Shown here in pieces: positions 4,183-40,020 of a stretch of DNA of 64,000 nucleotides. The stretch's first letter is position 1. Every line of letters starts with the position of its first letter. The notes below the pieces were generated by a model that worked only from the letters and a program-made list of their open reading frames with translations, had not been told where the DNA came from and searched no databases. The position numbers and the translations under genes are program-made. Source of the DNA: Verrucomicrobiota bacterium (GTDB taxonomy: Bacteria; Verrucomicrobiota; Verrucomicrobiia; Verrucomicrobiales; DEV007); contig JAHDID010000007.1 of the NCBI GenBank assembly GCA_020630975.1, positions 121,272 to 185,271 of the forward strand. The letters run 5' to 3'.

Positions 4183-4257
4183 AGCGGCGAAGATACTGGG
4201 GTTTCCGTTAAAGAAAATCACTAGCTAAGGCGCTTTTGAGGGAATATTCTGAGTAAG

Positions 4258-4809: not shown

Positions 4810-4875
4810 ATGACTACACCGAAAAACAGCCTATGTTTTTTTCGGTGGATAGAGAAATTAGGTGAATGGGGACAG

Positions 4876-4925
4876 GCGACTTGTGGCGTGAATGCCCGTT
4901 GTCGATAATTGAAGGGGGGAGGGCT
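4876..4925 (+). pseudogene. decayed fragment of a second Uma2-family gene
   Basis: A short stretch resembles the middle of the upstream Uma2 gene (4485-4530). The 14-mer GAATGCCCGTTGTC is shared exactly (4498-4511 and 4890-4903), and both flanks align with scattered substitutions: GGCGA before it, and a GA-rich stretch ending in GGGC after it. In the intact gene this segment encodes the residues around ECPLSTNEGVKGID. The copy has no open frame. It looks like a relic of a tandem duplication. Confidence 0.5.
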
Positions 4926-4983
4926 TGTCTTTGATCAATAATTCAACTGAAATTTTATTCACTATCGGCTAGGCTCTGGTCTC

Positions 4984-13784: not shown

Positions 13785-16700
13785 ATGGCAGACCTCGGAG
13801 GTCGCCACTATCGCACTATGACTAAGAATCTAACTGGCCTATACAATCACGAAGACGAGCGTAGCTCTTGTGGAGTCGGATTTCTTACACGGAAGGACAG
13901 CAAACAAACTCACGATTTGTTGGTAAAGGGGCATCAGGCCCTTTGCGCTGTGCCGCACCGTGGTGGTATGTCCTCAGAGGGAATCGGCGATGGCGCAGGC
14001 ATCTCAGTAGATCTGTCAGTTAAGTTTTTCCGCAAGGTATCAGGCGTAGAGCTAGAGGCTGGTGCCTTTGGTGTGGGTAATTTCTTTCTACCAGCCGATG
14101 AGGCGCATCGCGATCGTGCTCAGCAGATCGTCGAGGAAAAAATCGAGGCAGGTGGCTTCACCATCGTCAAAAAGCGCAAGGTGGAGGTGAACAATTCTGC
14201 CATCGGCGAGCGCTCGGTGAAGGGCCAGTTGCCGATTATTCAGTGGATTTTCACCGCTCCAGATGGGCTGCGTGGAGCTGAGCTAGACTCAAAGACGCAC
14301 GAGGTGCTGCTCGATATCGAGTCCGTAGCCTACACCGACGAGGATCTAGCCGGTCTGTATCCACTGTCACTCTCAGCACGCCTGCAAGTGCTGAAGGGCC
14401 GTCTCAACTCCTGGGAGATCATCCCATACTACCAGGATCTGAGCGATGAGGACCACGAGGTACACACCATGTACTTCCACACCCGCTTTTCGACCAATAC
14501 GGATCCGCATCCGTCGATGGCCCAGCCATTCCGTCTGATGGCTCACAATGGTGAGCTGAATACTGACAAGAAGAACAGGCTCAGTGAGGCAGCAGTGGCT
14601 CTAGCGCGGAATAAAAATATCATCCGCCCGAAAGGCCAGTCCGATAGCTGTCGCCTGGACCAGACGCTGAATTCACGCGTCTTCGAGGACTCTGTCGATC
14701 TGGTCACCGCTGTGGTGGCGATGATGCCGCCAGCTTGGGAAAATGACCCTCGCGTCACTCCCGAGGTGCGCGCTATGCTGGAGTATTTCTCCCTGTTTGA
14801 GGAGAAAAACGACGGTCCTGCGGCATTGATTTTCGGTAATGGCACCGTGGTCGGGGCTCGTCTCGATCGCCTCGGTCTGCGTCCACTCCGCTCGGTAGAG
14901 ACCGAGGAGTATGTGGCTGTCATGTCCGAGCAGGGGCAGATCAGCTTTCCGCCCGAGACGGTGATCCGCCGGGGTCGTGTCGAGGCCGGTGGTATGATCT
15001 ACTACGATCACGCTGAGCAAAAGCTGTACGATACCGATGAGGCGCTCACCAAGCTAGCTGGCGAGGACGACTACGCAGCATTGGTAGCGGCCAATCAGGT
15101 GGTCATCGACGATCTGCCAGAGCCAGAGGAGTCTCCAAAAGACTTTGGCGGGCGTTATAAGGGTGATCTGGGCACTTCTGCTCGCTACGTGGCCTACACT
15201 CACAACCAAGAGAGCTTCAAGTTCCTCATGGATCCGATGCTGCAGAATGGCATCGAGAAGGTCTCGGCTATGGGCTATGGCAATGCCATCAACTCGCTGT
15301 CCGACCACGAGGGTGGGGTAGCCAAATACTTTAGCCAGCGTTTCGCACAGGTGACCAATCCGCCTCTAGATTCTATACGAGAGGCCGATGGCATGACCCT
15401 GCGCGTCGCACTGGGAGAGAAGCCGCATTTCGGCAAATCCCGCGCCAAGCAGATCATCGTGCACTCGCCGATCCTACGCATGGCTGACATGCTCAAGATC
15501 CGCGCCCAGGAGGAGACTCCGTGGCAGAGCTTTCCACTATTCTACAAGCCTGAGTTTGGCGACAAAGGTGCCGAAGCTAATGAAAAGGCTATAGTCGAGG
15601 CCATCGACAAGGTCGCAAATGAGGTGGTCGATTTCGCCCGAGATCGCGGTGGCATCGCCATCCTGTCCGATCGCCATGTGAGCACAGAAGACGCCGCGCT
15701 GCCGGCGACGATCGCTGTGTCGGCGATCAATCAGCGTCTGATCGAGGAAGGGCTGCGCTTCAAGGTGTCGCTAGTGCTCGAGAGCGGTCAGATCGCCTCC
15801 TCTCACCACATCGCATGTGCCCTCGGTTTCGGTGCTGCGGCTGTCTACCCGCTAGCGGTGCGCCTGCGTGCCGAGGAGCTGTTTGGCGACGATGCCTACG
15901 CCGCCTTTGGCAAGTTTAAGAAAGCGGCCGAAAAAGCCATCATGAAGACCATGGGTAAAGTCGGTCTTTGTACGGTGGAAAGTTACAGTGGCGGCGAGTT
16001 TTTCGAGCCGAATTTCCTCGATACCAACGATCCTGTCATCGCCCGCTATCTGCCCAATATGAAGTGCCCTGTGGGTGGTGTGCAGTTCGACTCGATCGCT
16101 CGCTCAGTAGCCGATTGGCATGAGCGTGCACTCACTGTCAAGGGGGATAAAGATGTGCCGATCCTAGGTCTCTTCAAAGAGCGCTCCGAGGGGGCAGGTC
16201 ACTCCTACGGCACCACTGCTGTGCGTGGCTTCGTCGATATGACCGAGGAGGAGATTGCCTTCGAGGGTGCTGACCGGGACGACCCCGCTCTCGGCGATCT
16301 GACTCTCCGTCAGTTGAATGATGCTTTTGGCCTGAATGAAGACGGCTACGTGAATACTAGCTACGATATGATCAGCCCTGATCGCATCGATAGCTTTAGT
16401 ATCACCAAAGGCTACCGCGCCTTCATCAAGATGATGAGCGCTGAGCGCGATCAGCGTCCTGCAGCCCTGCGTGATGTGCTCGGCTTCCCGGCTGATGTGG
16501 CCGATGCCAAAAAGTCTGAGGACTTCGACGCGGTGATTTCGCGATTCGATAAGTTTGGTAACAACAATTTCCTCATCCGTGGTCTCGAGTGCGAGAGCAA
16601 GGGGGATGGCCAGTATGAGCTAAAGCTCGTCGGCTCCAAAGATGCGGCTCGCCTCAAGGCGCTCGGTCAGTCTCTGGAGAGTGCCTTTGGCAAAGATCTA

Positions 16701-23943: not shown

Positions 23944-24057
23944 GTAGCCACCTTAGCAAAATAAATGTTTAAAATTTAATAACAATTAAATTTACCATAA
24001 TTTGAATCTGTGGGATGTTTCCATGCTGCTTCACTTGCAGCCCCCTATTCCCCCCAA

Positions 24058-27000
24058 ATGAAATCCCCCCTGTTGATTGGTCTTGCACTGTCTTGCCTCG
24101 GTATCTGCACTTCGCGGTCTTTAGCGAGTGATGGCGGGTTTGGTTTGGTCCATTTTCCGGCTGAGCAGGGTAGCCAGGCCTTGGATTGGACTGGTAGCGC
24201 TCGTTTCAAACCTGTGCCATTGGCTGTGTCTGTGAAGCCTCTTGGGGTAAGTAGCGTGAGTGGCAGCGTGGTCGCGACTACCGGGCAGCCGCTCACGGTT
24301 GGTGCCTATTCTCCAGCGGGACGGTATTATCTGGAAGTGGTGACTGGCTCAGCCGCAGGAAAGCGTGTTGATGTGACTGGAAATACTGAGAACACGATCA
24401 CCGTGGATCTGTCTAAGGGTGACCTAGCTGGTCTGGGCAGCAGTGATACCATCCACATCATCGAGAAATGGTCGCTCGACCGACTATTTCCAGGAGGACA
24501 GCGGCTAAACAGCTCGAGTCCGACAGTGGTGGGCACTGAAATCGTGTTTCCGAAGTCTACCGACACAGGTATCGATTTTTCGGCAGCTCCGGTTTATCAG
24601 TACCGTAGCGATCTGTCGCGCTGGATCTCTGCTGCAGACCCTGCGACTGACGTCGGTGCTGCCTTTATCGAGCCAGGGGCCCTCATGGTGGTGCGTGATA
24701 CGGCGGTAGTCGCTATTGATCACGTGTTTTCTGGTCGGGTAGTGACTGGGACAATTCCATTCTACGTAACGGCGGAACGAGAGGCTGTAGCCGAGATCGA
24801 AATCAAATACCCGGCTGATACCGACCTAGTTGATGGCGAGAGTTGGCTTGATTTTGGGGCGGTCAGTGTCGGTGGAAAAAAGGATATACAGATCTTTCTA
24901 CACAATACCGGTAGCGGTGTGTTGGGGCCATTGTCGGCTGAGATAGTAGGTGATTCGGCTGCGAGTTTTTCGGTAGGAGCATTTGGTGCGAATTCATTAG
25001 CCCCAGGGGAGGTTACGACGTTAAACCTTTCAGTCACCCCCAATGCCTTCGGTAGCGTGCAATCGGCGCTGCAGATCACTAGTAATGACGCGGATGAGGC
25101 AGTCTTTGATATCAGTCTGACAGCGACTGGTCTGGCTGCCGATATCAGCGTGCAGGATTGGGTAGGTGGTGCACTCATCAGCGGTGAGGGCGCGATGAAT
25201 TTTGATTCATTGCTAGTGGGTGGCAGCGTGATTAGACAGATGACTCTGAGAAATCAGGGGAATGCGGTGCTAGCCATTTCTGATATCGCGATCTCTGGTG
25301 ATGATCAGTCCGATTTTGTCATACATTCGATTGGATCGACGGCGCTCGCCCCGGGCGGAGACACGACATTGGCTATCCAGTTTTCTCCCAGCGCTGCGGG
25401 AGACAGGGTGGCGAGTATTCGGTTCACGTCCAATGATCCAGACGAAGCTAGTTTTGATATCGGACTGACCGGAAAAGGAACCATGCCGATGATCTCGCTT
25501 GAGCACCCGCATGGCGTCGCACTAGACCACGATACGGCAAAGGTAGTATTCGACATGGTGCCCGTGTCTGAAAGGCATGAGCAGGTGGTCACGGTAAAAA
25601 ATTCAGGAGATGGTCTACTAAGTAATCTATCTGTGGCGGTAGAGAATGCCAATGGTGTAGGGACGTTTGAGGTCAAAGATCTAGCAGCGGAAGAAGTCGC
25701 TCCTGGAGATTCGACTTCTTTTAAGGTACTTTTTACACCTCAAAACTCTGGCGATGGAACTGCCACGGTCAGAGTTTTGAGTACCGATTCCGACCGATCT
25801 CCGTTCCTCGTGCGACTGGAGGGTACAGGCACAGATCCGGAGATCGCCATCAAAAATGCATCTGGTGCGGACTTAGTGGATGGAGTTTCGGTGATTGATC
25901 TGGGATCGATCAATCTGGGAGGTGCACTCGTGGGAAATCTGACAATTCAGAACTCGGGTAACGCTCCTTTGACGAATTTAGCACTGAGTATCACAGGAGA
26001 GAATGCGGAAGATTTTAGTGCAGAATCGCTGCCGGTAGCTAGTCTCCAGCCCGGGACTTCGGTGGGGTTGGTCATCAATTGTGAGCCTTCGGCTGTGGGG
26101 GATCGGGGTGCGGTCTTGAGAGTGACGAGTAACGATAGAGATGAGTCACCATTTGAGATACAGTTGACAGCCAAGGGGACGGTGCCGGAGATCGATGTCG
26201 AACAGCCAGTTGGTAGTCCACTAGAGAGCCAAGGAGAGGGAGTCGATTTTGGGAGCATCTCTGTGTCTCAGACCGCTAAAAAGGTTTTTCAAATCATGAA
26301 CTCTGGAGATGGAGATCTAGAAGAAATATCGATCACTTTAGAGGGTGTGGGGAAAAGCGATTTTTCTGTAGATACCCCAGTGGCTAGTGTGTTGAGTGCA
26401 GGACTGTCAGCTAGCTTCGAAGTCAGCTTCACCCCTACAGCATCAGGCGATCGCAATGCACGGATGTTGATCGCGAGTAATGATAGTGATGAAAATCCAT
26501 TCGTCGTATCGATGACGGGATTAGGTTTACAGGCGGAGATCAGCGTCACACAAGCTCCGAACCGGCAACTGATCGACGGTGAATCTGCAATAGAGTTTGG
26601 GGAATCAAACCTTGGCGTAGAAGCGAATCAGACGGTCGTGATTCGGAATGATGGTAACGATGATCTGAAGGGGATTCAATTGGCTTTGGCTGGGGCCGCT
26701 GTTGGAGATTTTCGTATCGATAGCAATGTCCCAGATAAGCTCGATCCTGGCGAGATGGTTTCTGTCAAATTGACGTGTAAGCCCAGCGAGCCAGGTATTC
26801 GAGAGGCTATGCTCAGTATTCTCAGTAGTGATTCAGATGAAGGAACCTTTGAGCTAGCGTTACTTGCTAATGGTACGCAGCCTAATATTAGGGTTGAGCA
26901 CCCTCTAGGTACTCCATTGGTAAATGGAGAATCTGGCCTCAGTTTCGGTGATTTGGATGTCCTCGAATCTTCCGAACTAACGGTATCGATTCGGAATACG

Positions 27001-29370
27001 GGAGACGGTGTGCTTGGGGATTTGGGAATCAAATTTACGGGCCCTAATCGTGGCGACTTTTCATTCACCGATCTGAGTGGGGTGGGAGCCAATCCTGGCG
27101 AAGACCTGTCATTTAAGATCGTTTTTACGCCGCAAGGTGCCGGGGAGCGATCGGCTGTCATCGAAATCGAAAGTAATGATGCGGATGATAGCCCGTTTTT
27201 AATCTATCTGACGGGGACCGGATTGGACCCAGAGATACAGGTGAAAGATCCGGAAGGGGTAGAACTGGTTTCTGGTCAGTCGGCAGTTAGTTTAGGTAGT
27301 GGTAATCTTGGCGCTACTGTACAAAAACAGCTCCTGATTCAAAATATAGGAAATGCTCCACTTTGGGGTATTCAGTTTTCGCTGTCAGGGGACGATGCGA
27401 GTGATTTCTCGGTTTCGCCGTTGAGCGAGGCGTCTTTGGCTCCTGGGGAGTCGGTGAGTGTGCCTATTTCCCTCACGATTACCGAGCTGGGGTTAAGGTC
27501 CGCGACCTTGGAGATCGAGAGCAATGACCGAGATGAGACTCCATTTTTGGTCCCGCTCACAGGTCGAGGAACGGCTCCTGATATCACTATTCAACAGGCC
27601 GCAGAGGTAGATTTGATCAGTGGCGGAGGCGGTATCGAGTTTCCAGATACGGATGTTCTCACTTCTGCTTCATTACCTTTCGTTGTCAGGAACGAGGGAG
27701 ATGGATTGTTGGAGAGCATCGGTTTTAGCCTCGAGGGCGAGCATTCCGATGACTTTACGGTGCGTGACTTGACTGCTACAGAAATTGCTCCCGGTCAGAG
27801 CGGAGGGTTCGTAGTAGATTTCACCCCTACCGGAAGAGGGGCTAGGACAGCGCTATTGAGTATACAGAGTAATGATCCGGATGAGAACCCATTTCAGGTA
27901 GCCTTAGCAGGCTTAGGGCTGGATCCTGAAATCAGTGTTAGCCATGAGGAGCTAGGGGTTCTGGTTGACGGTTCGGCGAGCCTTGATTTTGGCCAGTCGA
28001 ATGTGGGAAAAGCTAAGGATTTGGCGATAACGATTTCCAATATCGGTAATGCTCCGTTGTCTGATCTAGGCATGGGTGTGTTGGGGGCCGCCAGTGGAGA
28101 CTTCCAAGTCGCAGATATTGGTGTGGAAGTCTTGGAGCCAGGTGCTGGTCTAGAGGTTTCGGTCTCGATGGTCGCTACTGAAGTGGGTAGGCGAAATGCG
28201 ATTCTTACGATTTTTAGTGACGATCGAGATGAGGGCGAGTTTCAAGTGAACTTGACCGGCTTTGCTACCGAGGCTCAGTTGGCCGTTTTTTATCCTGAAG
28301 ATAATCGACTGGAGAATCATGGTGATCCCATTGATTGGAGTGGTGTTTTGGTTGGTCAGAGTGTACGCAAAACTTTTGTCTTAGAGAACGTTGGTGATGG
28401 GCCTCTAGAAGAGCTAAGATTTGAGGTTGCCGGATCTGAATCGGATGATTTTTCTATTGTAGGAGGCCCATGGGGGGCGGTGTTGCCTAGTGAAACCGTT
28501 TCTGTGACTGTTGAGTTGTCACCATTAGCTGCTGGTAGTCGGGCAGCTGTTTTGGAGATTCATAGCAATGATCGAAACAATACTCCTTTTCTGGTTCCTT
28601 TTATTGCCCATGGTTTACAGCCAAAGATCGGTATCGAAGAGAAGGATCAAGCGTCTCTCTTAGCAAGTAATGTGGTTCAATTAGATGATAGAACGGCTTC
28701 GGAAAAAGTACTAACTCTCAAGAATCTTGGAAACGTCGACTTGTCAGATATTTCAGGTTCGATCGTTGGGCCTGATGCATCGGGCTTTTCGATCGCCGAA
28801 TTGGAAGTGGACTCTCTGCTTGTTGGCGAGAGTTCAGACTTCAAGATACTTTTCACTGCGACTGCAGCAGGCGCTAAGTCGGCTAAGCTCAGAGTTAGAT
28901 CGGCGGAAACAGAAGATAATCCTGTGGAACTAGATTTGATGGGTGTGGTTGCGACTACGATCAACTCCTGGGCCGAAGCTCATGGCTTGATGGGGGACGA
29001 TGCGTTGCCCACAGCCGATTCGGACGGCGATGGGGTGAGTTTGTTGGAGGAATACGCTTATAACTTAGATCCCAACCTAGCCGATAATCGGAGATTGGAA
29101 TCTGGCATCGGCACCTCGGGTCTGCCTCAGATGGGGCTGGTGGGCGATCGACTGCAGATCGAATATCTGCGCCGCGTGGGTGATACTAGTATTCACTATA
29201 TACCTGAGTTTTCGTCTGAGGTGGAAGAATTCTTTCCTGCAGCGTCTTCCGAGACGGTATCTGGCATCGATCAGTACTGGGAACGAGTCACCATCCGCGA
29301 CAGCGAATCTACCGCCACATCCGACCGACGATTTGCTCGGATGCGAGTCGAGTTATCAGATTCCCTTTAA
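24058..29370 (+). CDS. secreted TIGR02597/choice-of-anchor-D repeat protein
   Basis: Very large secreted or surface protein (1770 residues from the ATG at 24058, which gives signal peptide MKSPLLIGLALSCLGICTSRSLA). The first 230 residues resemble the TIGR02597 family of Verrucomicrobia. Twelve tandem repeats of about 107 residues follow, of the choice-of-anchor-D (ASPM/SPD-2/Hydin-like) immunoglobulin fold; each has a (D/Q)PEI-type start, a GE-x-x-x-x-FG turn, an N-x-G-(D/N) turn and a closing SND-x-DE-x-PF strand. Units alternate between GDG-L and GNAPL types. The C-terminus has a calcium-loop-like DSDGDGVSLLEEYAYNLDP and a module shared with the next gene. Probably adhesive or structural. 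The M36 protease gene starts 24 nt later. Confidence 0.85.
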   Translation: MKSPLLIGLALSCLGICTSRSLASDGGFGLVHFPAEQGSQALDWTGSARFKPVPLAVSVKPLGVSSVSGSVVATTGQPLTVGAYSPAGRYYLEVVTGSAAGKRVDVTGNTENTITVDLSKGDLAGLGSSDTIHIIEKWSLDRLFPGGQRLNSSSPTVVGTEIVFPKSTDTGIDFSAAPVYQYRSDLSRWISAADPATDVGAAFIEPGALMVVRDTAVVAIDHVFSGRVVTGTIPFYVTAEREAVAEIEIKYPADTDLVDGESWLDFGAVSVGGKKDIQIFLHNTGSGVLGPLSAEIVGDSAASFSVGAFGANSLAPGEVTTLNLSVTPNAFGSVQSALQITSNDADEAVFDISLTATGLAADISVQDWVGGALISGEGAMNFDSLLVGGSVIRQMTLRNQGNAVLAISDIAISGDDQSDFVIHSIGSTALAPGGDTTLAIQFSPSAAGDRVASIRFTSNDPDEASFDIGLTGKGTMPMISLEHPHGVALDHDTAKVVFDMVPVSERHEQVVTVKNSGDGLLSNLSVAVENANGVGTFEVKDLAAEEVAPGDSTSFKVLFTPQNSGDGTATVRVLSTDSDRSPFLVRLEGTGTDPEIAIKNASGADLVDGVSVIDLGSINLGGALVGNLTIQNSGNAPLTNLALSITGENAEDFSAESLPVASLQPGTSVGLVINCEPSAVGDRGAVLRVTSNDRDESPFEIQLTAKGTVPEIDVEQPVGSPLESQGEGVDFGSISVSQTAKKVFQIMNSGDGDLEEISITLEGVGKSDFSVDTPVASVLSAGLSASFEVSFTPTASGDRNARMLIASNDSDENPFVVSMTGLGLQAEISVTQAPNRQLIDGESAIEFGESNLGVEANQTVVIRNDGNDDLKGIQLALAGAAVGDFRIDSNVPDKLDPGEMVSVKLTCKPSEPGIREAMLSILSSDSDEGTFELALLANGTQPNIRVEHPLGTPLVNGESGLSFGDLDVLESSELTVSIRNTGDGVLGDLGIKFTGPNRGDFSFTDLSGVGANPGEDLSFKIVFTPQGAGERSAVIEIESNDADDSPFLIYLTGTGLDPEIQVKDPEGVELVSGQSAVSLGSGNLGATVQKQLLIQNIGNAPLWGIQFSLSGDDASDFSVSPLSEASLAPGESVSVPISLTITELGLRSATLEIESNDRDETPFLVPLTGRGTAPDITIQQAAEVDLISGGGGIEFPDTDVLTSASLPFVVRNEGDGLLESIGFSLEGEHSDDFTVRDLTATEIAPGQSGGFVVDFTPTGRGARTALLSIQSNDPDENPFQVALAGLGLDPEISVSHEELGVLVDGSASLDFGQSNVGKAKDLAITISNIGNAPLSDLGMGVLGAASGDFQVADIGVEVLEPGAGLEVSVSMVATEVGRRNAILTIFSDDRDEGEFQVNLTGFATEAQLAVFYPEDNRLENHGDPIDWSGVLVGQSVRKTFVLENVGDGPLEELRFEVAGSESDDFSIVGGPWGAVLPSETVSVTVELSPLAAGSRAAVLEIHSNDRNNTPFLVPFIAHGLQPKIGIEEKDQASLLASNVVQLDDRTASEKVLTLKNLGNVDLSDISGSIVGPDASGFSIAELEVDSLLVGESSDFKILFTATAAGAKSAKLRVRSAETEDNPVELDLMGVVATTINSWAEAHGLMGDDALPTADSDGDGVSLLEEYAYNLDPNLADNRRLESGIGTSGLPQMGLVGDRLQIEYLRRVGDTSIHYIPEFSSEVEEFFPAASSETVSGIDQYWERVTIRDSESTATSDRRFARMRVELSDSL

Positions 29371-29394: not shown

Positions 29395-32300
29395 ATGAGA
29401 CCTCCTGTGCTTCTTTGTTCGTTAGCAGTTTTGATCTGTTTGATCATTTTTTTGTGTTTTAATTCCCGCAGAGAGATCGAGGCAGAAGTCGCCGATCCGG
29501 TTATTGACCCTGTGGTTGTAGCCTTGAAAGATTCAGATTTTGAGGAGGTGTCTACCAGGAGCTTCGATTCCCTATTGAGGGACAAAAATCAAAAGTTGGC
29601 AGCCACCGAGGTCTACATTAGGCCACGGGCGTCAGGCAGTGTAAAGTGGTCGGTCAGTCAGGAGTGGGGCAGACCGAGTCCAAAGTCTTCTCTATATGAG
29701 GTTGCCGTCGAGGGACTTCGTAGGAGTGTAGAGAGCGATGGATATGAGGTGGCTGATTTTGCGGATGTGGTGCTTCGGTCACAGGCTACCACTCAGCATA
29801 ATGGAGTGAGCCACGTGTATCTGAGGCAGCAGGTGGGCGGTATACAAGTCTACAATGGCGATGCTAATGCAAACTTCGATAAACAAGGCCAACTGATCAG
29901 CTTGCATAATAGTTTCGTGAAAGATATCCAAAGCGAGATTAATACCCATTTACCTTCGATTGACGCGGCTGCGGCGGTGATCGCTGCTGCGGAAGACTTG
30001 GGTATGGGTGCTGTGTCGGCGTTGGAAATGGACCTAGTGTCTCCCAGTCGTGGCGCGTCGCAGAAAGCTCTTCTGGAAAATGAAGAGATCTCCCGCGATC
30101 CGATTCCTGCGAGACTGATGTATTTACCACAGCCAGAGGGCGAAACCCGTCTGGTGTGGAATGTGGTGATTCACACGCCTGAGGAGTCGCAATGGATGGA
30201 CATGAACGTAGACGCGGTAACCGGCGAGGTTCTCAGTCGGGTGAACTGGTACGCCAGTGCGGACTATAAGGTGTATCCGCTCCCTTATGAAAGTCCTATG
30301 GATGGAAGTCAGCAGGTGGTGACGGACCCTCACGATGAGACTGCATCGCCCTATGGGTGGCACGATACTAATGGCAATGCGGGGGCGGACCACACCGACA
30401 CTCGTGGCAACAATGTGCTGGTCCAGGACGATACCGATGCCAACAACAGTGGGGGCACGAGACCCGATGGCGGGGATTCGTTGTCATTCGATTATACGGT
30501 GAGTTTATCGCAATCGCCATCGGCTTATCTCGATGCATCGTCTACCAATTTGTTTTATTGGAATAACATCGCTCACGACATCTTTTATCGGTATGGGTTC
30601 GATGAGAGTGCGGGCAATTTTCAGGAAAATAACTACGGTCGTGGTGGTTCGGCATCAGATGGTGTTTACGCGGATTCTCAGGATGGAGGCGACTTCAATA
30701 ATGCGAATTTTGCGACGCCTCCAGATGGCAGCAACCCGAGGATGCAGATGTTTCTTTGGGACCGTACATCGCCACTGCGCGACAGTGGTCTCGATTCCAC
30801 GGTGATCATTCACGAGTATGGGCATGGCGTGTCGAGTCGGCTTACCGGAGGGCGCTTCAATTCGAGTGCGTTAGGGGCGAGCCAGAGCCGAGCGATGGGC
30901 GAGGGGTGGAGCGATTTTCTGGCGTTAGCCTTGACGGCGGAGTCGAGTCATACCTCCACTCAAAGGCGGCCGATTGGCTATTATTCGATCGGGCGTAGTG
31001 CGACGAGTGTGGGAATTCGCCCTGCTGCTTACACCACGAACATGAGTGTGAACAACTACACCTTCCGAAATATGAGCGGTGCAGGGCTATCAGAGCCTCA
31101 TGGTGTTGGATTTTTGTGGTGTACGATTTTATGGGAGATGTATTGGGAGTTGGTGAATAAGCATGGTTTCGATGCTGATATTTATAATGGAACAGGCGGT
31201 AATAACATGGCCATTCAATTGGTGATCGATGGGATGAAGCTTCAGCCTGCGAATCCAACTTTCTTATCGGCTAGAGATGCGATACTGCAGGCGGACCAGC
31301 AGAATAACAGCGGTGAGAACCGAGATGAGATCTGGCGTGCATTTGCCAAACGGGGGATGGGCTTTTCCGCCACTGACTCGGGGGATCCCAATAACATGAG
31401 CGTTACGGAAGCTTACGATGTGCCCGATGAACGTTTCTCAGTCGACGACGTGAGGTCTGATGAGTTGGATAGCGGTAGCCGAGACTATGCTTTTACCATT
31501 TCCCTATCAGCTGCGGCAGAGGAGGCCGTGTCTGTGGATTACGCTACGGCTAACGGGACGGCTAGTGCTGGGAGTGATTTCCAGGCTAGTAGTGGCACCG
31601 TCTCTTTCGCGATAGGTGAGTCATTTAAAACGGTTAATATACCGGTGTATGGTGACACTCAGGTCGAAGAAGATGAGACCTTCGAAGTGCGATTGAGTAA
31701 TCCAGTAAATGGGGTGATCGCCGATGGCGCAGGGATAGGCACTATTATCACGGATGATTTCACCACGCCTTCAATCACGAGTGCTCTCAGTGCTGAGGCT
31801 AGTGTGGGTTCGCAGTTTTCCTACACGATCGTAGCCGTTAATTCGGCACGGTCATTTTCACTTGGGAGCAATGCTCCAGCAGGAATGAGCGTGAATGCTT
31901 CAACCGGAGTTGTGACGTGGAGTCCAAGTGAGGTAGGTACTTTTTCGGTCGATATCACCGCGACGAATCCAGCTGGGAGCGACACCCGGTCGTTGGTGAT
32001 TACGGTGAATAGCCGATCACTGGCAGGAGCGTTGGATACGGCATTGGATGTTACCACGAGTAGTCGTGCGTGGTTTTGGCAGGATGCCGTGACTTACGAT
32101 GGAGTGGATGCTGCTGCGAGTGCCGATGTGTCGAATAACCAGAGTTCATCGTTTGAGGTTGAGATTCAGGGCCCTGCGGATGTTGAATTTTGGTGGAAAG
32201 TGTCGAGTGAGTGGGATTTCGATTTTCTCGAGTATTACGAAAATGATCGCTTGGTGACGGATCTCAGTGGAGAGCGTAATTGGCGGAAAGTGTCGAGAAC

Positions 32301-33078
32301 GTTTGCCGCTGGTAATCATGTGCTCAAATGGCAATACATCAAAGACGATATCTTTTCCGAGGGACAGGATCGAGGTTGGGTCGATAGCCTCAAGGTGACC
32401 AGTCTATTGGAGGCTCAGACTATCTCCTTCGCTTCGATCGAGCAGCAGTTTATCGACACTAGTCTAGCCTTGAATGCAAGTGGAGGTGATTCAGGGAATC
32501 CTGTCACCTTTGTTGTTAGTAGTGGTCCGGCAAGTATCAATCAGGGGAACGTGGTTACATTCTCAGGTACAGGCTCGGTGACTATCACAGCCTCGCAAGC
32601 AGGTAACAGTACTTATGCTGCAGCGGAAGAGGTGTCTCGGAGTTTTCAGGTGGTGGATGGCCAGATGCTATTCGAGCAAGCAGCCGCAGATGCAGGTTTA
32701 TCAGGTGCAGATGCCCTGGCCACGGCGGTTCCATTTCATGATGGCATTTCCAATCTCGAACGGTACGCCTTTAACCTGCCTCTAGCTACAGGAGTGACGG
32801 CGCCAATGGTTCAGACCACGGGAACATCGGGTTTGCCTGGTGCTTTTGTCGATTGGGTGGGGGATCAATCTTATTGGAACTTACATTACGTGAGAAGACT
32901 GAATAGTGGCGTGGCCTATAATGCAGTTGGATCACGGAGTGTCGATGGTGAGTATGTCGTGGTCACGGCAGATACTGTAGAAATCGATCCTATCAATGAA
33001 ATGTGGGAACGGGTAAGGCTCCGTGCGCAAGCGCCAAGCCATGATCTGTATCTGAAAGTCCAGGTGAGCCTAGAGTGA
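29395..33078 (+). CDS. secreted M36 (fungalysin-like) metalloprotease with Calx-beta and Ig-like domains
   Basis: Secreted zinc endopeptidase. A signal or anchor segment (VLLCSLAVLICLIIFLCF) is followed by a propeptide region and the catalytic domain, with H473-E-Y-G-H477 (VIIHEYGHGVSSRLTGG) and the third ligand E503 in MGEGWSDFLALAL, the M36 pattern. C-terminal domains: Calx-beta (about 685-785, DETFEVRLSNPVNG), a putative Ig domain (about 790-880), a beta-sandwich with WFWQDAVTYDG, another Ig-like domain, and a final module (1096-1227) shared with the upstream repeat protein. It is 24 nt downstream of that gene and probably cotranscribed, so the protease may process it or other surface proteins. 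Confidence 0.88.
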   Translation: MRPPVLLCSLAVLICLIIFLCFNSRREIEAEVADPVIDPVVVALKDSDFEEVSTRSFDSLLRDKNQKLAATEVYIRPRASGSVKWSVSQEWGRPSPKSSLYEVAVEGLRRSVESDGYEVADFADVVLRSQATTQHNGVSHVYLRQQVGGIQVYNGDANANFDKQGQLISLHNSFVKDIQSEINTHLPSIDAAAAVIAAAEDLGMGAVSALEMDLVSPSRGASQKALLENEEISRDPIPARLMYLPQPEGETRLVWNVVIHTPEESQWMDMNVDAVTGEVLSRVNWYASADYKVYPLPYESPMDGSQQVVTDPHDETASPYGWHDTNGNAGADHTDTRGNNVLVQDDTDANNSGGTRPDGGDSLSFDYTVSLSQSPSAYLDASSTNLFYWNNIAHDIFYRYGFDESAGNFQENNYGRGGSASDGVYADSQDGGDFNNANFATPPDGSNPRMQMFLWDRTSPLRDSGLDSTVIIHEYGHGVSSRLTGGRFNSSALGASQSRAMGEGWSDFLALALTAESSHTSTQRRPIGYYSIGRSATSVGIRPAAYTTNMSVNNYTFRNMSGAGLSEPHGVGFLWCTILWEMYWELVNKHGFDADIYNGTGGNNMAIQLVIDGMKLQPANPTFLSARDAILQADQQNNSGENRDEIWRAFAKRGMGFSATDSGDPNNMSVTEAYDVPDERFSVDDVRSDELDSGSRDYAFTISLSAAAEEAVSVDYATANGTASAGSDFQASSGTVSFAIGESFKTVNIPVYGDTQVEEDETFEVRLSNPVNGVIADGAGIGTIITDDFTTPSITSALSAEASVGSQFSYTIVAVNSARSFSLGSNAPAGMSVNASTGVVTWSPSEVGTFSVDITATNPAGSDTRSLVITVNSRSLAGALDTALDVTTSSRAWFWQDAVTYDGVDAAASADVSNNQSSSFEVEIQGPADVEFWWKVSSEWDFDFLEYYENDRLVTDLSGERNWRKVSRTFAAGNHVLKWQYIKDDIFSEGQDRGWVDSLKVTSLLEAQTISFASIEQQFIDTSLALNASGGDSGNPVTFVVSSGPASINQGNVVTFSGTGSVTITASQAGNSTYAAAEEVSRSFQVVDGQMLFEQAAADAGLSGADALATAVPFHDGISNLERYAFNLPLATGVTAPMVQTTGTSGLPGAFVDWVGDQSYWNLHYVRRLNSGVAYNAVGSRSVDGEYVVVTADTVEIDPINEMWERVRLRAQAPSHDLYLKVQVSLE

Positions 33079-33994: not shown

Positions 33995-34522
33995 TTACGG
34001 AGTGATTTTGGGTGTGGCCGGCTTTAGTTCTTTTTCTTCCTTCTTGATTAGCACGCCTTCCTTTATGTGCAGAATGGTGACGGATGAGCGGATGTGGGTG
34101 TAACCTAGTGGTCTGCCTTTGTAAATATGGAGAGCGCCGGTATACCAGGAGGCGAGAACCTTTTCATAGCGCTCGAAAAAGTCGTAGAATGGTACCTGGG
34201 TTCCACCGGGTTCGGGTGATTCGATCGTTACGCCAGTAAGATAGATTCGATTGTTTTTGAAGAGGAGTGTGTATGCAAATCCGTCTGTGTTTGCACTATT
34301 GTGGTAGTTCCACCCTATGGTCTGAGTTTCCAGGGTTTTGTTTTTCAGCCATTTTTTGATGTCTTCTTTTTTCTTTGGAGCTAAATCAAAATAATGGACA
34401 GCATCGATCGAGCCATCCTCATATTCTAAGATATCAGGTCGTTGTGGCGATGCGTTGGAAAATTGACTAACTGCGAAGAGTAAGAGGAGTAGACCAGATA
34501 AGCTGAGGGCAGAACGGCTCAT
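33995..34522 (-). CDS. secreted hypothetical protein
   Basis: Unrecognised 175-residue protein with a signal peptide (MSRSALSLSGLLLLLFAVSQFSNA). The mature part is a mix of strands and amphipathic helices with a lysine-rich segment (FDLAPKKKEDIKKWLKNK) and a basic tail. It lies 84 nt downstream of the M50/HlyD gene on the same strand and could be the last gene of that transcription unit, in which case it would be a candidate accessory or substrate. That link rests on position alone. Confidence 0.55.
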   Translation of the reverse strand: MSRSALSLSGLLLLLFAVSQFSNASPQRPDILEYEDGSIDAVHYFDLAPKKKEDIKKWLKNKTLETQTIGWNYHNSANTDGFAYTLLFKNNRIYLTGVTIESPEPGGTQVPFYDFFERYEKVLASWYTGALHIYKGRPLGYTHIRSSVTILHIKEGVLIKKEEKELKPATPKITP

Positions 34523-34606: not shown

Positions 34607-36877
34607 TCACATCTGCGTAGCGGCCTCCCACTTCGACAGAAGCCAGCGCGACATGCCATCGTATAGCCAGACGCCGAGTTTTTCTTTCTCGCCTTCGTAT
34701 AGCTTGGCGTAGCCCCACTCGCCTTCGCGTAGGATGGCTGCGCCGTCGGGCTCGGAGATGGTGGCGTAGCCAGTCAGGCGGGCTTTGGGGAATTCGAGTT
34801 GGGTGACGTCGGTCTCGTCTACGGAGAGTCCTACGAAGTGGTCCATTTCCTCGCCAGCAGGGGCGATTGTGCGGGCTAGGCCTTTGGCGCGCTCGCTCTG
34901 CATGTCTACCTTTTGGCGCACAGCCAGAGGGCCGCCATTACTGGAGGCGAGGGCGATGTGAGGCACAGCTATGGTAGCGGTTTGCTCGAGGCGGGTGATG
35001 CGTGCGGGGTAGGCACCGCCTTGGCGGCCAGAGATGCGGATGTTGAGCGACTGTTGTTTTGCCGCTTCAAAGGCGCTCACAGCCCGCTCGCTGGCGGAGA
35101 TGAGTAGCTCGGGCTCGCTGCTGGGGATGATGGATAGGATCTCGCTGCCGGGCTGGAGAAAGCGGCCGGTGAGCATCTCTGGGCGGCGGAGAAAGACGCG
35201 GCCACTGATGGGGGCGTAGACAGCGAGGTCTTTCACCCGCCGGTCGGCTAGGGCGAAGCGGGCGCGCAGGCCACCGAGATTTTGCAGCTCAGCCTGGTAG
35301 GCGGCCATTTGTTTTTTGTCGAGGTAGTCGGCAGCGCGTAGCTGGGCTGCAGTCACATCGAGCTGACTGGTGCCCAGCTCGACCTCCCTCTCGACATTGC
35401 TGAGGCGGGCGAGTAGCTGGCCTTGTTGGACGGCTTCGCCATTTTTCACCAGCACTTCCTCGACAAAGCCGGGCAGCTCATTGCGCAGCGACTCTCGGCC
35501 AGGGTAGGTGACTACGGCTACCGCTCGGGTGTAGGGCCGAAACTCGATGAAGTGGAAGGCCGAGGCTATCACTCCGACGATACAGGCTAGGCGCAGTATC
35601 ACGAGGATGGGATTGACCCGCAGTCCACCGTGGCCCTCGCGTAGGAGTTTGAAAAACTTCTTCAGCCAGCCAAATACCATGGCCCCGATCATCAGGCCGA
35701 CGAGGGCTAGGCCGATGCCTTTGGCGAAGAGAGCCAGGGCGATCATGATACCCGACCAGATGACGATGCGCCAAAACCACGCTCCCACTCCATAGGCCGC
35801 GATGGTGCGCGGAGCTTGTTTGGCCTGCGCGGGGAAGGTGAGCTTCTTCATGCCGATGATCCAGCGGTGGTAAAACCAGCTCATCACGGCCTGGCCGCGT
35901 TGGCCGAGGTTGGGGATATTCAGCAAATCACAGGCGATGTAGTAGCCATCGAAACGCATCAGCGGATTGGCATTGAATAACACGGTGATTACCGAGGCGG
36001 CAAAAATGGCATTGTAGGCCAGAGTGCCCATGAGTGAGCCGGTATTATTCGCCCAGACGAGGATGGCTGCAGCGGCGATCGCTAGCTCGACGTACATACC
36101 GGCGGCAGCGACTGCCATACGCTGCCAGCGGCCGGGGAAGCGCCAGCTCGACGAGGCATCGACAAAGGTAAGCGGGGTGACAAATAGCAGCATCTGCACG
36201 CCCCACTCGGGCACGACTCCGCCAAAGCGGCGGGTGGCCACGCCATGGCCCAGCTCGTGCAGGATCTTTAGCACGCCGAAGGTCAGGATCATCAGTAGCC
36301 AGTTTTGCGGTAGGATGATCTGCGAGGCGGCCGAGCGAAATAGCTCCCAGTTTTGGAACAGTGTGTAGCCTGCGTAGCTGACCAGTATCAGCCACAGGAT
36401 GAGAGCGAGCTTGGTGAAAAGCCACGCGAAGGCCGGCTGTAGCCAGCAGAAGAAGGCATCGGGATTGCCCAGCGGGATTTTCAGGAAAACCAGTTTTTGG
36501 AACCAAGGCTGTTTGGGCTTTTTCGAGAGCGATTCATCGGCCAGATCGTAGCGGCGCATGGCCTGGCCCGCGTTGTCGCTCTCCAGTAGATCATTGTCCA
36601 CCAGCCAGCGGACGAGTTTGAGGGCGTCTTGCTCGGAGATAGCGTTGGCACCCAGCGCGCGTGCCGAGATCGCGATCGCCTCGCCCACGGTGCGGCGACC
36701 ATTCAGTGATTGGATAAATTGGTACTCCGGCAACCCCACTTGAAAGTAGCGCCGGTGCATGAGATCCTCGACCACATAGACAGGCCCACTACGCCTCTGG
36801 TGGAAGGTGACCTCCACATCTCGGCGAATACGTGGCCGCGCGACCGACCACTCTTTTACGGCGAAGTCGGTGCTCAT
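34607..36877 (-). CDS. PqqD-like/M50 site-2 protease/HlyD adaptor fusion protein
   Basis: A 756-residue inner-membrane protein. Residues 15-100 look like a PqqD-like (RiPP-recognition-element type) winged helix (RRDVEVTFHQRRSGPVYVVED, LVRWLVDNDLLES). A multi-pass M50 metalloprotease domain follows, with H207-E-L-G-H211 and the third ligand D310 in NANPLMRFDGYY. After further membrane segments, residues from about 440 form a HlyD/biotin-lipoyl-like adaptor (GFVEEVLVKNGEAVQQGQLLARL, VKDLAVYAPISGRV). It is third in a run of HlyD-adaptor, GAF-HlyD and this gene. The set looks like an envelope-spanning maturation or export device with no ABC ATPase in view. Substrate unknown. Confidence 0.82.
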   Translation of the reverse strand: MSTDFAVKEWSVARPRIRRDVEVTFHQRRSGPVYVVEDLMHRRYFQVGLPEYQFIQSLNGRRTVGEAIAISARALGANAISEQDALKLVRWLVDNDLLESDNAGQAMRRYDLADESLSKKPKQPWFQKLVFLKIPLGNPDAFFCWLQPAFAWLFTKLALILWLILVSYAGYTLFQNWELFRSAASQIILPQNWLLMILTFGVLKILHELGHGVATRRFGGVVPEWGVQMLLFVTPLTFVDASSSWRFPGRWQRMAVAAAGMYVELAIAAAAILVWANNTGSLMGTLAYNAIFAASVITVLFNANPLMRFDGYYIACDLLNIPNLGQRGQAVMSWFYHRWIIGMKKLTFPAQAKQAPRTIAAYGVGAWFWRIVIWSGIMIALALFAKGIGLALVGLMIGAMVFGWLKKFFKLLREGHGGLRVNPILVILRLACIVGVIASAFHFIEFRPYTRAVAVVTYPGRESLRNELPGFVEEVLVKNGEAVQQGQLLARLSNVEREVELGTSQLDVTAAQLRAADYLDKKQMAAYQAELQNLGGLRARFALADRRVKDLAVYAPISGRVFLRRPEMLTGRFLQPGSEILSIIPSSEPELLISASERAVSAFEAAKQQSLNIRISGRQGGAYPARITRLEQTATIAVPHIALASSNGGPLAVRQKVDMQSERAKGLARTIAPAGEEMDHFVGLSVDETDVTQLEFPKARLTGYATISEPDGAAILREGEWGYAKLYEGEKEKLGVWLYDGMSRWLLSKWEAATQM

Positions 36878-36935
36878 TTTTTTGAGAAGGTGTTTTGAGA
36901 AGAGGAGAGAAGGAGAAGAGGAGTGGATGAGGGCG

Positions 36936-36971
36936 ATTGTACCCTATTCAGTCTGGACTGTACCCTATTGA
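36936..36971 (+). repeat. paired 15-bp repeat, copy 2 (21-bp period)
   Basis: ATTGTACCCTATTCA at 36936-36950 and ACTGTACCCTATTGA at 36957-36971, spaced 21 bp as in the other two loci. As in copy 1, the second unit is followed by ATTTGCTG. It lies between the M50/HlyD and GAF-HlyD genes. Confidence 0.8.
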
Positions 36972-36986
36972 ATTTGCTGATTTTGT

Positions 36987-37017
36987 GATCGGTCGGATTG
37001 GACCGATCTGTCCAATC
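36987..37017 (-). repeat. two overlapping, mutually exclusive hairpins
   Basis: GATCGGTC (36987-36994) can pair with GACCGATC (37001-37008), while GATTGGAC (36996-37003) can pair with GTCCAATC (37010-37017). The two stems share bases and cannot form together. They lie in the gap between two cotranscribed genes. The role is unknown; an attenuator-like switch or a REP-type relic are both possible. Confidence 0.45.
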
Positions 37018-37058
37018 TGACTGCTCGATTCCGCTGGAGTTATGGTTCGCCCGTGACA

Positions 37059-38933
37059 TCAGAAAAATCTCACCTTCACGTAGTTCCATGGTTTGTGGAA
37101 GAGGATCCACCAGAGGGGCTTCCAGCCGGCCTCGATGCGGGCTCGGCCGCGCATGCCGGGGCGCAGGTAGGCTTTGCCATCTTCGTCTACGAGGTAGGCT
37201 AGGCAGACAAAGACATTCTCGCTGTCGCTGACTTCGGAGACGGGATAGATCTGCTCGACTTTGGTCTCGAAGGCGCGGTTGCCGCGTGACTCGAGGCGGA
37301 CGACGGTGGGCAGATCGAGCTCTATCCAGTTGATATCCTCGTCGCTCACCGAGATCTCGGTGACGAATTTGTCGAAGGCAGCCACCTCGAAGAGTTTTTG
37401 GCCCATCTCGACGGGCACGCCTTTGGATCGCTCCAGATCACCGGTGAGGACTAGGCCAGTGATCGGGCTGCGGATCTCGAGATTGTCGCGGCGATACTGG
37501 AGTAGTTCGACTTCTTTGGACAGGGCTTCGTGCTCGTATTTGGCCAGCTGGTAGTTTTCGGTATCTTGCTTGGCCAGAGCTTGGTCGCGGCGCTTGGCGG
37601 CCACCTCGCGGTCGGCGATGGCTTTGGCCAGCTGGGCGGTGATCTCTTTGCCATCGAGCGTGGCGATCAGCTGATTTTCCTGCACCACCTCGCCGGGTTT
37701 GACTAGGGCATCTTCTAGGATACCGCTGATCGGTGCGGCTACCTGGCGCGAGATGTCTGGAGTCAGCCGTGCCGCAGCGCGGATGTGGTGCGGTACGGGT
37801 AGAAAGAGTGCCGCGATCAGCAGCAGTGGCATGACGATGGCGGCGACCTTTTTGCCCAGACTATTGTCTCTGGCGAAGCGGCGCATCTGGCCGCGGATAC
37901 CCTCGGGTAGGCCCTCGTGTAGCAGGGTGAGTAGGGCGACGAGGTGTGGGCCCATGGAGCTGAGTAGCTCGAATCTCTCTGGGCTCGGCTGCTGGGCGTC
38001 TCGGTACATCACCACCATGGCACCTTTGCGATCGCCCTCGGTGGGAGCCAGTGGTACGCCGATGATGCGGCCTACGGAAAAGGTCTGCAGCAGGGAGTCT
38101 TGATTGGAGGCGATCAGAGCTTTTAGCTCCATATCCTCTGGCGGGGGCCAGACTACGCTCGACTCAGCGGAGCGCACCTCGCGCATCAGGTTTTGCACTC
38201 GGGTGAAGCCCTGCGAGCGCTTCTCGCGCTTTTTACGGCCGGATATGGCATCGAGTTTGAGTCGGCCTTTTCTCTCCAAACCGAGGGCCAGGTGATCGCA
38301 GCCGACTAGCTCCTGTAGCTCGGAGGAGACGATGGCCACCGCGCTCTCATAGTCGGTAGCCAGAGAGGCTTTGGTGTAGAGATCGATCAGCAGGGTCGAT
38401 TGCAGGAATGCCTCTTGGGTTTTCTGCAGTTGGATGCGATTGGAGTAGTTCGCCATGACCGCTCCGTATAGCCCTAGCATACTGTAGGTCGGCTCGAGGA
38501 ATGGGGCGCGCTCTGGGCCGAGTAGTAGGATGAGCACGCAGGGCCCCTGAGCACCCATAAATGGCACGGCTAGACCGGCGAGTTTTTGGTCGCCTACGCT
38601 GAGTGTCACTTTCTGGCTGGATGCCGTCTCGCGCGAGTAGGTGGCGAGCTTGTCCACCTCGGGCTGAAATCCCTGGGGCAGTGTATTGCCCTGGCGCTGG
38701 AACTGGCCCTGCAGCACCATCTTGCCGATAGAGTCGGCACCGTAGATGAGGCAGGCGCGGGCGGTGGTGAGATCCACCAGATAGGCCATCGCATCGCGGC
38801 AAAACTCGCCGTAGTCAGCATGGCCGAATAGCTCATCGACCTCGCCGATGATGTCGCGACCGCTAGTATTCTGCGGTGGCTTCGCGGCAGGCGTATTAGG
38901 CGTGGCGTCGTTGTTGGCGACTTGGGAGCTCAT
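37059..38933 (-). CDS. GAF-domain HlyD-type membrane fusion protein
   Basis: A 624-residue protein that joins a cytoplasmic sensor to a periplasmic adaptor. Residues about 30-160 and 185-340 look like two GAF domains (the second with LVGCDHLALGLERKG and GRIIGVPLAPTEGD). One membrane segment follows (KVAAIVMPLLLIAALFLPVPHHI, about 367-388). The periplasmic part is a HlyD/biotin-lipoyl-like hairpin (PISGILEDALVKPGEVVQENQLIATLDGK, helical coil, IRSPITGLVL) and a beta-barrel ending in RPGMRGRARIEAG. It sits between the HlyD gene and the M50/HlyD gene on one strand. The GAF domains could sense a small molecule to gate the complex. Confidence 0.82.
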   Translation of the reverse strand: MSSQVANNDATPNTPAAKPPQNTSGRDIIGEVDELFGHADYGEFCRDAMAYLVDLTTARACLIYGADSIGKMVLQGQFQRQGNTLPQGFQPEVDKLATYSRETASSQKVTLSVGDQKLAGLAVPFMGAQGPCVLILLLGPERAPFLEPTYSMLGLYGAVMANYSNRIQLQKTQEAFLQSTLLIDLYTKASLATDYESAVAIVSSELQELVGCDHLALGLERKGRLKLDAISGRKKREKRSQGFTRVQNLMREVRSAESSVVWPPPEDMELKALIASNQDSLLQTFSVGRIIGVPLAPTEGDRKGAMVVMYRDAQQPSPERFELLSSMGPHLVALLTLLHEGLPEGIRGQMRRFARDNSLGKKVAAIVMPLLLIAALFLPVPHHIRAAARLTPDISRQVAAPISGILEDALVKPGEVVQENQLIATLDGKEITAQLAKAIADREVAAKRRDQALAKQDTENYQLAKYEHEALSKEVELLQYRRDNLEIRSPITGLVLTGDLERSKGVPVEMGQKLFEVAAFDKFVTEISVSDEDINWIELDLPTVVRLESRGNRAFETKVEQIYPVSEVSDSENVFVCLAYLVDEDGKAYLRPGMRGRARIEAGWKPLWWILFHKPWNYVKVRFF

Positions 38934-39045
38934 CTATATTGGGAAAAAAGGCAGGCCATCGAACCGTGCCTATGGTAAGAACAATCGGTTAGGAATTCTA
39001 CATTTTCCAGATACCTTTTCTGCCCTTTGTTTGGCGATTGTAGCC

Positions 39046-39900
39046 CTATGGCACGATGACTTTGGCAGGAGCGCCACTTTTGAAATTGAGATCGTAGTTT
39101 TCGATCACGATACCCACCTCCACCAGCCCGGTCGCGGCGAAGATGATGGGCGAGATAAACTCGATAGTGCCCTGTGTCGACCACCCCATATCGCTGCCAG
39201 TTACCTTTAGCTTGGAGCCGACATTGAGATTTTTGATCGATTGATAGGGTAGAAAGGTTGTGGCCTTGAGGCGCGAGACCTGCACGATACGGACTAGGTA
39301 GTCTGCGGCATCGGGGTCGTTGCCCTTCTGACCGGGGCCGACGGGCTCACCCACGTCGCGAGTGATGGATACCACATAGCCCTCGATCGGCGAGGTGATG
39401 GTGCGCTCGCTGAGCTCGGCTAGGATGCGCTGGGCATCGAGGTGGGCGATCTTTTGCTCCTCCTGAGCGGTTATCAGATTTCCCTCAGCAGCCTTCAGCA
39501 TGGCGTACTCCTTTTTGATCTCGGCGGTATTCGACGCACCGCGGCTTTTCAGCGAGGCTAGCATATTGTAGCGGTAGCTCTGCTGATCGTACTCGGCTTG
39601 GGCGGTCATGATGCGACCCTGATTCTCGGCCCGTGCTTTGGCGACTTGGTACTGCGCTTGGATCACGTCTGAGTTTAGCGTCATTAGCACTTGGTCTTTC
39701 TTCACGTATTCACCCTGTTTCACACCGAGGCTCTCGATGATGCCGGTATTCACCGAGGATAGCTCGACGCTCTCGTAGGGCTCGAGAAAGGTATCGCCCG
39801 ATGCGCCACTGGCCGCAGAGGACTGAGCGTGGGCTGCCCCAGCCGAGATGGCGATGGCGATAGAGAGAATGGCGAGGAGTGGTAGGAGAGATGGCTTCAT
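39046..39900 (-). CDS. HlyD/RND-type periplasmic adaptor protein
   Basis: Periplasmic adaptor, 284 residues from the ATG at 39900, which gives the signal peptide MKPSLLPLLAILSIAIAISAGAAHA. The reading from 39966 adds 22 residues before it. Biotin-lipoyl-like halves flank a helical hairpin: VNTGIIESLGVKQGEYVKKD then, after the coil, ITSPIEGYVVSITRDVGEPV. A beta-barrel and a C-terminal GLVEVGIVIENYDLNFKSG follow. First gene of the three-gene adaptor/M50 module; 112 bp separate it from the GAF-HlyD gene. No RND pump, ABC transporter or TolC homologue is nearby, which is unusual for this family. Confidence 0.82.
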   Translation of the reverse strand: MKPSLLPLLAILSIAIAISAGAAHAQSSAASGASGDTFLEPYESVELSSVNTGIIESLGVKQGEYVKKDQVLMTLNSDVIQAQYQVAKARAENQGRIMTAQAEYDQQSYRYNMLASLKSRGASNTAEIKKEYAMLKAAEGNLITAQEEQKIAHLDAQRILAELSERTITSPIEGYVVSITRDVGEPVGPGQKGNDPDAADYLVRIVQVSRLKATTFLPYQSIKNLNVGSKLKVTGSDMGWSTQGTIEFISPIIFAATGLVEVGIVIENYDLNFKSGAPAKVIVP

Positions 39901-40020
39901 AGTGGGTGCGAGTATGAGACTAGCCGATAATGAGCCGCCTCTACGAGTAAAAACGGATGAAACCAAGAATGCGTGAGAAAAAGGTGCTCAAGCTAAAATC
40001 AGGTCCAGAACAACTACTAT

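Follow-up and report, generated by a model that had tools for sequence, protein, structure and literature searches.

The 64,000-nucleotide stretch studied here (the window; positions 121,272 to 185,271 of contig JAHDID010000007.1, Verrucomicrobiota bacterium assembly GCA_020630975.1) carries a triad of minus-strand genes that encode an HlyD-type periplasmic adaptor, a GAF-HlyD protein, and a fusion of a PqqD-like domain, an M50 protease and an HlyD domain (M50-HlyD). We conclude that this triad probably supplies the envelope components of a type-I-like secretion system that is driven by SecA2 and exports giant proteins with an N-terminal LEPR-XLL signal. Gene content and gene order strongly link the module to its LEPR cargo. 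The same evidence identifies the partner ATPase in the source genome as a secondary SecA (SecA2), of which contigs C54 and C26 each encode a copy, and the LEPR giants as the substrates of the system.

To relate the module to its cargo, we surveyed 289 genomes of the phylum, using the same set for M50-HlyD, LEPR-XLL, SecA_DEAD and SecA2. LEPR giants were counted when the motif profile NF012209 matched in an open reading frame (ORF) of at least 1,000 amino acids (aa), and secondary SecA at E≤1e-75. M50-HlyD of any kind was found in 62/289 genomes, and the SecA-linked M50-HlyD clade in 21/289. Close relatives of SecA2 occur in exactly these 21 genomes. LEPR ORFs of the required length were found in 20/289 genomes, all of them among the 21 (hypergeometric p 6e-30). 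Since the boundary of the SecA-linked clade was drawn after the data were seen, we also give the value against all 62 M50-HlyD genomes, 2.7e-15. Seven genomes that lack this module gave matches in ORFs below 900 aa, which we discounted as chance; with these short matches counted in, the association has a p-value of 5e-24. The number of SecA_DEAD copies beyond the canonical one equals the number of M50 copies in 21/21 genomes, either 1:1 or, in four genomes, 2:2 (G181 from fragments). The tagged giants span 2,000-20,000 aa overall, and in the source genome the motif scores above cut-off in 15-17 long ORFs of 2,179-9,621 aa, all outside the window.

The features also sort together within genera. 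In genus g17, G039 has M50, SecA2 and LEPR, while G048 and G108 lack all three. Likewise, all features are present in G275 and none in G075, G122 and G155 (genus g21), all in G140 and none in G085 and G261 (g24), and all in G093 and G187 and none in G023 (g59). These within-genus contrasts weigh more than the p-values, because the p-values ignore relatedness.

Gene order points the same way. In 10/21 genomes, one end of a LEPR giant gene is no more than 10 kb from the M50 gene, compared with 0.5 expected by random placement (p 1e-12), and in an eleventh genome (G218) the giant adjoins SecA2. In Verrucomicrobiota, we found HlyD-GAF-M50-SecA2 operons with TolC and a LEPR giant. On alphaproteobacterial plasmids, the giant gene, GAF-HlyD, M50-HlyD, SecA2 and HlyD form one run, to which several plasmids add DUF3467 and TolC. 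Thalassospira marina and Methylosinus are examples of bacteria that have one complete operon. Where the tags of the plasmid giants were read, they are LEPRLLLAAD, LEPRVLLNAD, LEPRFLLSAD, IEPRILLSAD and LEPRLLLSAD. For locus L115, which shows no SecA2 in the fetched stretch, assignment to the SecA2-linked set was made by sequence and the LEPR neighbour. Some plasmid annotations name M50-HlyD "PqqD family" and SecA2 "prepilin peptidase" or "helicase"; the RefSeq records of L111 (14174-16090) and L114 (15074-17098) are examples of the 'prepilin peptidase' label. At L119 (NZ_CP123586.1, around 183224), an in-frame LEPRLLLAAD tag lies upstream of the giant's annotated start. The annotation misses this tag, and similar misses would hide other substrates.

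This module, with its "secondary SecA_DEAD" ATPase, was already described by Kamneva, Poudel and Ward in 2015 (PMC4452313), whose article is the only one on it in the literature searched. Its families are SecA_DEAD without SecA_SW, M50-HlyD, GAF-HlyD and HlyD, with OEP nearby in some cases, and Verrucomicrobia are included. The SecA gene is usually in the same locus, and split cases are reported too; an operon of Methylobacterium extorquens AM1 is one that the authors name. The accessible part of that article calls the broader role of the module 'completely unknown', and names no substrate, signal or PqqD-like domain.

In the source genome, we identified one canonical SecA gene and two SecA2 genes, both on other contigs; the window, and hence the triad locus, contains no SecA gene. 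The SecA2 copies have 649 aa (C54) and 650 aa (C26, where a further HlyD gene comes next). Both match SecA_DEAD at 1e-89, with P-loop and PP_bind, and keep GEGKT, DEVD and the preprotein cross-linking domain. The Pfam search detected no SecA_SW (wing/scaffold) in either copy. A second GAF-HlyD/M50-HlyD pair is located on C16, adjoining a DUF3467 gene. The source genome appears to hold two systems, each split over two contigs, with the window presumably paired with C54 and C16 with C26. The closest relative of the window triad in the genome-contig scan, L019, has an M50 protein 75% identical to that of the window. Here, SecA2-HlyD-GAF-HlyD-M50-HlyD are contiguous, and the SecA2 is closest to the C54 copy. 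A scan of viral contigs found no further homologues.

No ATP-binding cassette (ABC)-type exporter ATPase was found beside the triad or inside the annotated homologous operons. SecA2 and TolC/OEP genes adjoin the triad in homologous loci, the source genome has many OEP genes, and in relatives OEP/TolC lies beside HlyD. An earlier note, made from the window sequence alone, had described the triad as having no transporter ATPase. This is true for the window and not for the system, given the two SecA2 genes elsewhere. The same note held that a standard transporter at homologous loci, if it explained the adaptors, would speak against its reading; the homologous loci bear this out by half, in that the partner they supply is SecA and not an ABC or resistance-nodulation-division (RND) transporter. 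A small DUF3467 protein, possibly a chaperone, recurs beside GAF-HlyD in SecA2-type operons (L129, at C16:12702-12917, and plasmids L111, L115, L126 and L127), and none was found on the window contig. On C26, SecA2 is directly preceded by an ORF of 114 aa (L008, 7309-7653) that matches nothing in Pfam. Neither this ORF nor a 240-aa gene on C16 has relatives at the other fetched loci.

The three genes of the triad lie in the order HlyD, GAF-HlyD and fusion, separated by 112 and 181 bases. The HlyD-type adaptor gene (39046-39966, minus strand) matches HlyD_D23 (1e-13) and HlyD_3 (4e-12) in Pfam. Its product has 306 aa if counted from TTG, and a likelier start is the ATG near 39900, which is followed by a signal-peptide-like stretch. 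The GAF-HlyD protein (37059-38933, minus strand; 624 aa) has a GAF domain in its N-terminal half, one transmembrane segment (residues 363-381 in the transmembrane scan) and a C-terminal HlyD domain (HlyD_D23 2e-14). The GAF match is weak in the window copy (GAF_2, 0.0054) and clear in several homologues, down to 1e-14. The fusion (34607-36877, minus strand) has 756 aa, and its C-terminal HlyD domain (residues ~447-660; 34898-35539, minus strand) matches HlyD_3 at 8.6e-9 and HlyD_D23 at 3.6e-6.

On its own, the window copy of the fusion falls below the curated Pfam cut-off for M50, and 34/34 homologues match. The zinc motif HELGH (residues 207-211; 36245-36259, minus strand) and the second motif NPLMRFD (residues 304-310; 35948-35968, minus strand) are both intact, with H207, E208, H211, N304, P305 and D310 invariant in 34 aligned sequences. 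Because HELGH and N-x-NP...D are invariant among these homologues, M50 is expected to be a working protease. The hydrophobicity scan gave 6-7 hydrophobic segments in the M50 protein, all of them between the PqqD-like domain and the HlyD domain. This order suggests that the PqqD-like domain most likely faces the cytosol and acts before export. Taken together, the arrangement of the three ORFs on one strand, the HlyD domains in 3/3 proteins, the M50 enzyme and the GAF input are as the earlier note had described them.

The N-terminal domain of the fusion (residues ~10-104; 36566-36850, minus strand) appears to resemble PqqD and RiPP recognition elements (RiPP, ribosomally synthesised and post-translationally modified peptide), and we propose it as the reader of the LEPR leader. 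The Pfam profile PF05402 found no match to this domain in the source genome, so homologue scans and a profile search of the PDB were needed. PqqD matched in 10/34 homologues (best 2.6e-6), one plasmid homologue matched TIGR03859 PqqD at 1e-5, and the three best PDB profile matches were PqqD (5sxy, 3g2b) and the lasso-peptide protein TfuB1 (6jx3), with E-values of 0.025-0.15. These matches support the PqqD-like assignment of the earlier note. Structure prediction, which that note had suggested, was run with AlphaFold on two input sequences only and gave two models with pLDDT of 44.5 and 32.4, too low to use. The model at 44.5 has the element order beta-beta-beta-alpha-alpha-alpha, as in PqqD, at a confidence too low to confirm the fold.

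We read the LEPR giants at their N-termini only. Their leaders consist of a basic stretch and then F-x-L-E-x-L-E-P-R-[VI]-L-L-S-A-[DT]-P, and the hydrophobicity scan found no Sec-type hydrophobic core in them. In the mechanism we propose, the cytosolic PqqD-like domain would capture the LEPR leader, and SecA2 would drive the chain, unfolded, through either SecYEG or the membrane domain of the M50 protein. Cleavage at the M50 site may remove the leader near LLSA. Across the periplasm, a duct built from the three HlyD domains would lead to a TolC-type pore, and the GAF domain could gate or tune the assembly.

In the remaining 41 genomes with M50-HlyD, which make up a sister branch, there is no close relative of SecA2. 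From three giants neighbouring sister-branch M50 genes and two proteobacterial giants, we built the motif LExRxLFDGAA. At E≤0.005 it was found in 29 genomes, 26 of which are among the 41 (p 2.6e-23; since loci of this kind supplied the motif, the value is partly circular). None of the 29 overlaps with the LEPR genomes. In 14 sister-branch genomes, a tagged giant is located within 10 kb of the M50 gene. Plasmids of Azospirillum, Variovorax, Tistrella, Kosakonia and E. coli also carry this branch, with the tags LEPRFMFDAA, LEARYMFDAA, LEPRMMFDAA, LEPRMLFDGA and LESRQLFDGA. In a tree of 50 M50 proteins, 32/32 SecA2-linked sequences form one clade (support 0.986), LL-type tags are found inside it (16/16) and FD-type tags outside it (8/8). 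The tag type tracks the M50 protein, as expected if the M50 protein reads or cuts the tag.

Several observations concern the sister-branch loci themselves. L118 (E. coli plasmid NZ_CP081687) and L134 (Kosakonia) each have a giant immunoglobulin-like protein with a LExRxLFDGA tag, TolC, two HlyD-type genes and M50-HlyD, and no SecA2. The M50 query matched 18 Escherichia and 8 Citrobacter plasmid records. At L105, from a genome without SecA2, M50-HlyD lies near genes with LEALEQRQLLAG and LEALETRTLLAG tags (1755-5048 and 15390-16844), possibly a third flavour of tag.

We considered three other explanations of these data. In RiPP-type maturation and export (daptide/YydH-like), the PqqD-like domain would bind the leader of a small precursor, M50 would cleave it, and the adaptors would export the peptide. 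Residues 22-403 of the fusion align with NF041824 daptide_HExxH (160.4 bits) and NF058609, and homologues match PqqD families, but the scores are far below the curated cut-offs of 300 (NF041824) and 225 (NF058609). Moreover, it is giant genes that recur beside these genes in the fetched loci and plasmid records, with no recurring precursor or modification enzyme, and the HlyD fusion and TolC partners are unlike known RiPP proteases. We consider this explanation very unlikely. The earlier note had proposed a machine that recognises, cleaves and exports a protein or peptide; a protein machine with probable cleavage agrees with our data, and the peptide reading is unsupported.

Less probable still is an explanation in which ordinary SecA/SecYEG exports the LEPR giants, with a separate route across the outer membrane. 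The triad would then act only after export, as a membrane-anchored protease and tether that, in the manner of LapG/LapD, keeps the giant at the surface or lets it go, and GAF would be the sensor. Regulated release would fit the GAF input and the protease, and the sister clade has no second SecA. However, every genome with SecA2 has the SecA-linked M50 and vice versa, the leaders are without a Sec-type hydrophobic core, and the PqqD-like domain, being N-terminal to all membrane segments, is most likely cytosolic and pre-export. The explanation of Kamneva et al., as given in the accessible part of their article, is a type-I-like module in which the M50 protein serves as an inner-membrane pore replacing the ABC transporter and SecA2 as the ATPase, the substrate being unknown. 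The four gene families are identical, and 6-7 hydrophobic segments suit a pore, yet the invariant HExxH and D motifs favour a working protease over a mere pore. Lacking the substrate link, it is otherwise a sub-version of our explanation, and as it stands we consider it unlikely.

Several points weigh against the SecA2-driven system for LEPR giants that we favour. Because the genome sample has phylogenetic structure, the p-values imply more independence than there is. The fragmented genome G086 has M50 and SecA2 with no LEPR match, and in the plasmid M50-HlyD loci L117 and L136 the neighbouring large or repeat gene has no tag. In the source genome no LEPR gene is near the triad, and the link there consists of co-occurrence and homology. 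The AlphaFold models are too poor to confirm the PqqD fold, and leader binding, the cleavage site, the conduit and the gating are steps that we infer. Finally, the sister clade adjoins similar giants without SecA2, which indicates that SecA2 is not essential to the general scheme.

Two window genes had been suggested as cargo in the earlier note, and neither is supported. The 1,786-aa HYDIN/ASH-type repeat protein (24010-29370, plus strand) begins with a Sec-type signal peptide, and none of the other fetched loci has a relative of the gene at 33995-34522. The LEPR tag is in no ORF of the window. The repeat protein gene is followed by a gene for a large protein with a HEYGH zinc-protease-like motif (29395-33078, plus strand).

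On balance, we lean towards the view that both branches represent a distinct diderm secretion pathway, with an N-terminal LExRxL[LF] signal, a PqqD-like reader, an adaptor-fused M50 signal protease and, in one of the two branches, a SecA2 motor. Such a pathway would be widespread and unrecognised, occurring in Verrucomicrobiota and in Pseudomonadota (Escherichia coli plasmids included), and would take proteins of up to ~20,000 residues across both membranes. The module (2015) and the LEPR motif, as an NCBIfam domain, are already known. The link from module to cargo appears to be new, as do the PqqD-like domain as reader, the sorting of tags by M50 clade, and the sister branch; none of these was reported in the literature searched, which left most subscription journals outside. 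These findings bear on how proteins of thousands of residues are exported in the Planctomycetes-Verrucomicrobia group, and in that literature LEPR-XLL had no machinery assigned. Linking motif, truncated SecA and M50-HlyD genome by genome gives a defined signal, motor and protease, and 'PqqD family protein', 'prepilin peptidase' and 'efflux adaptor' labels in many genomes gain a concrete candidate role.

The system described here resembles several known ones in part. It shares its gene families with the Kamneva module (PMC4452313, accessible part), with the genes here split over contigs, and its giants share their motif with the LEPR-XLL proteins (NCBIfam NF012209, LEPR-8K), for which the same literature offered no export route. 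Like classical type I secretion (HlyB-HlyD-TolC, or LapBCE for giant adhesins), it has HlyD adaptors, TolC in relatives and giant repeat substrates, but it uses a SecA-like motor in place of an ABC ATPase, an N-terminal in place of a C-terminal signal, and a protease and PqqD-like domain fused to an adaptor. In the accessory SecA2 systems of Gram-positive bacteria, too, a second SecA serves only some of the exported proteins, whereas the SecA2 here lacks a wing/scaffold domain and has HlyD/TolC-type parts as its partners. The daptide and YydH (LiaK) RiPP intramembrane proteases share the PqqD-like and M50 arrangement, which aligns over 380 residues, while the fusion described here falls below the family cut-offs, is joined to HlyD, has no RiPP genes seen with it, and is associated with giant substrates.

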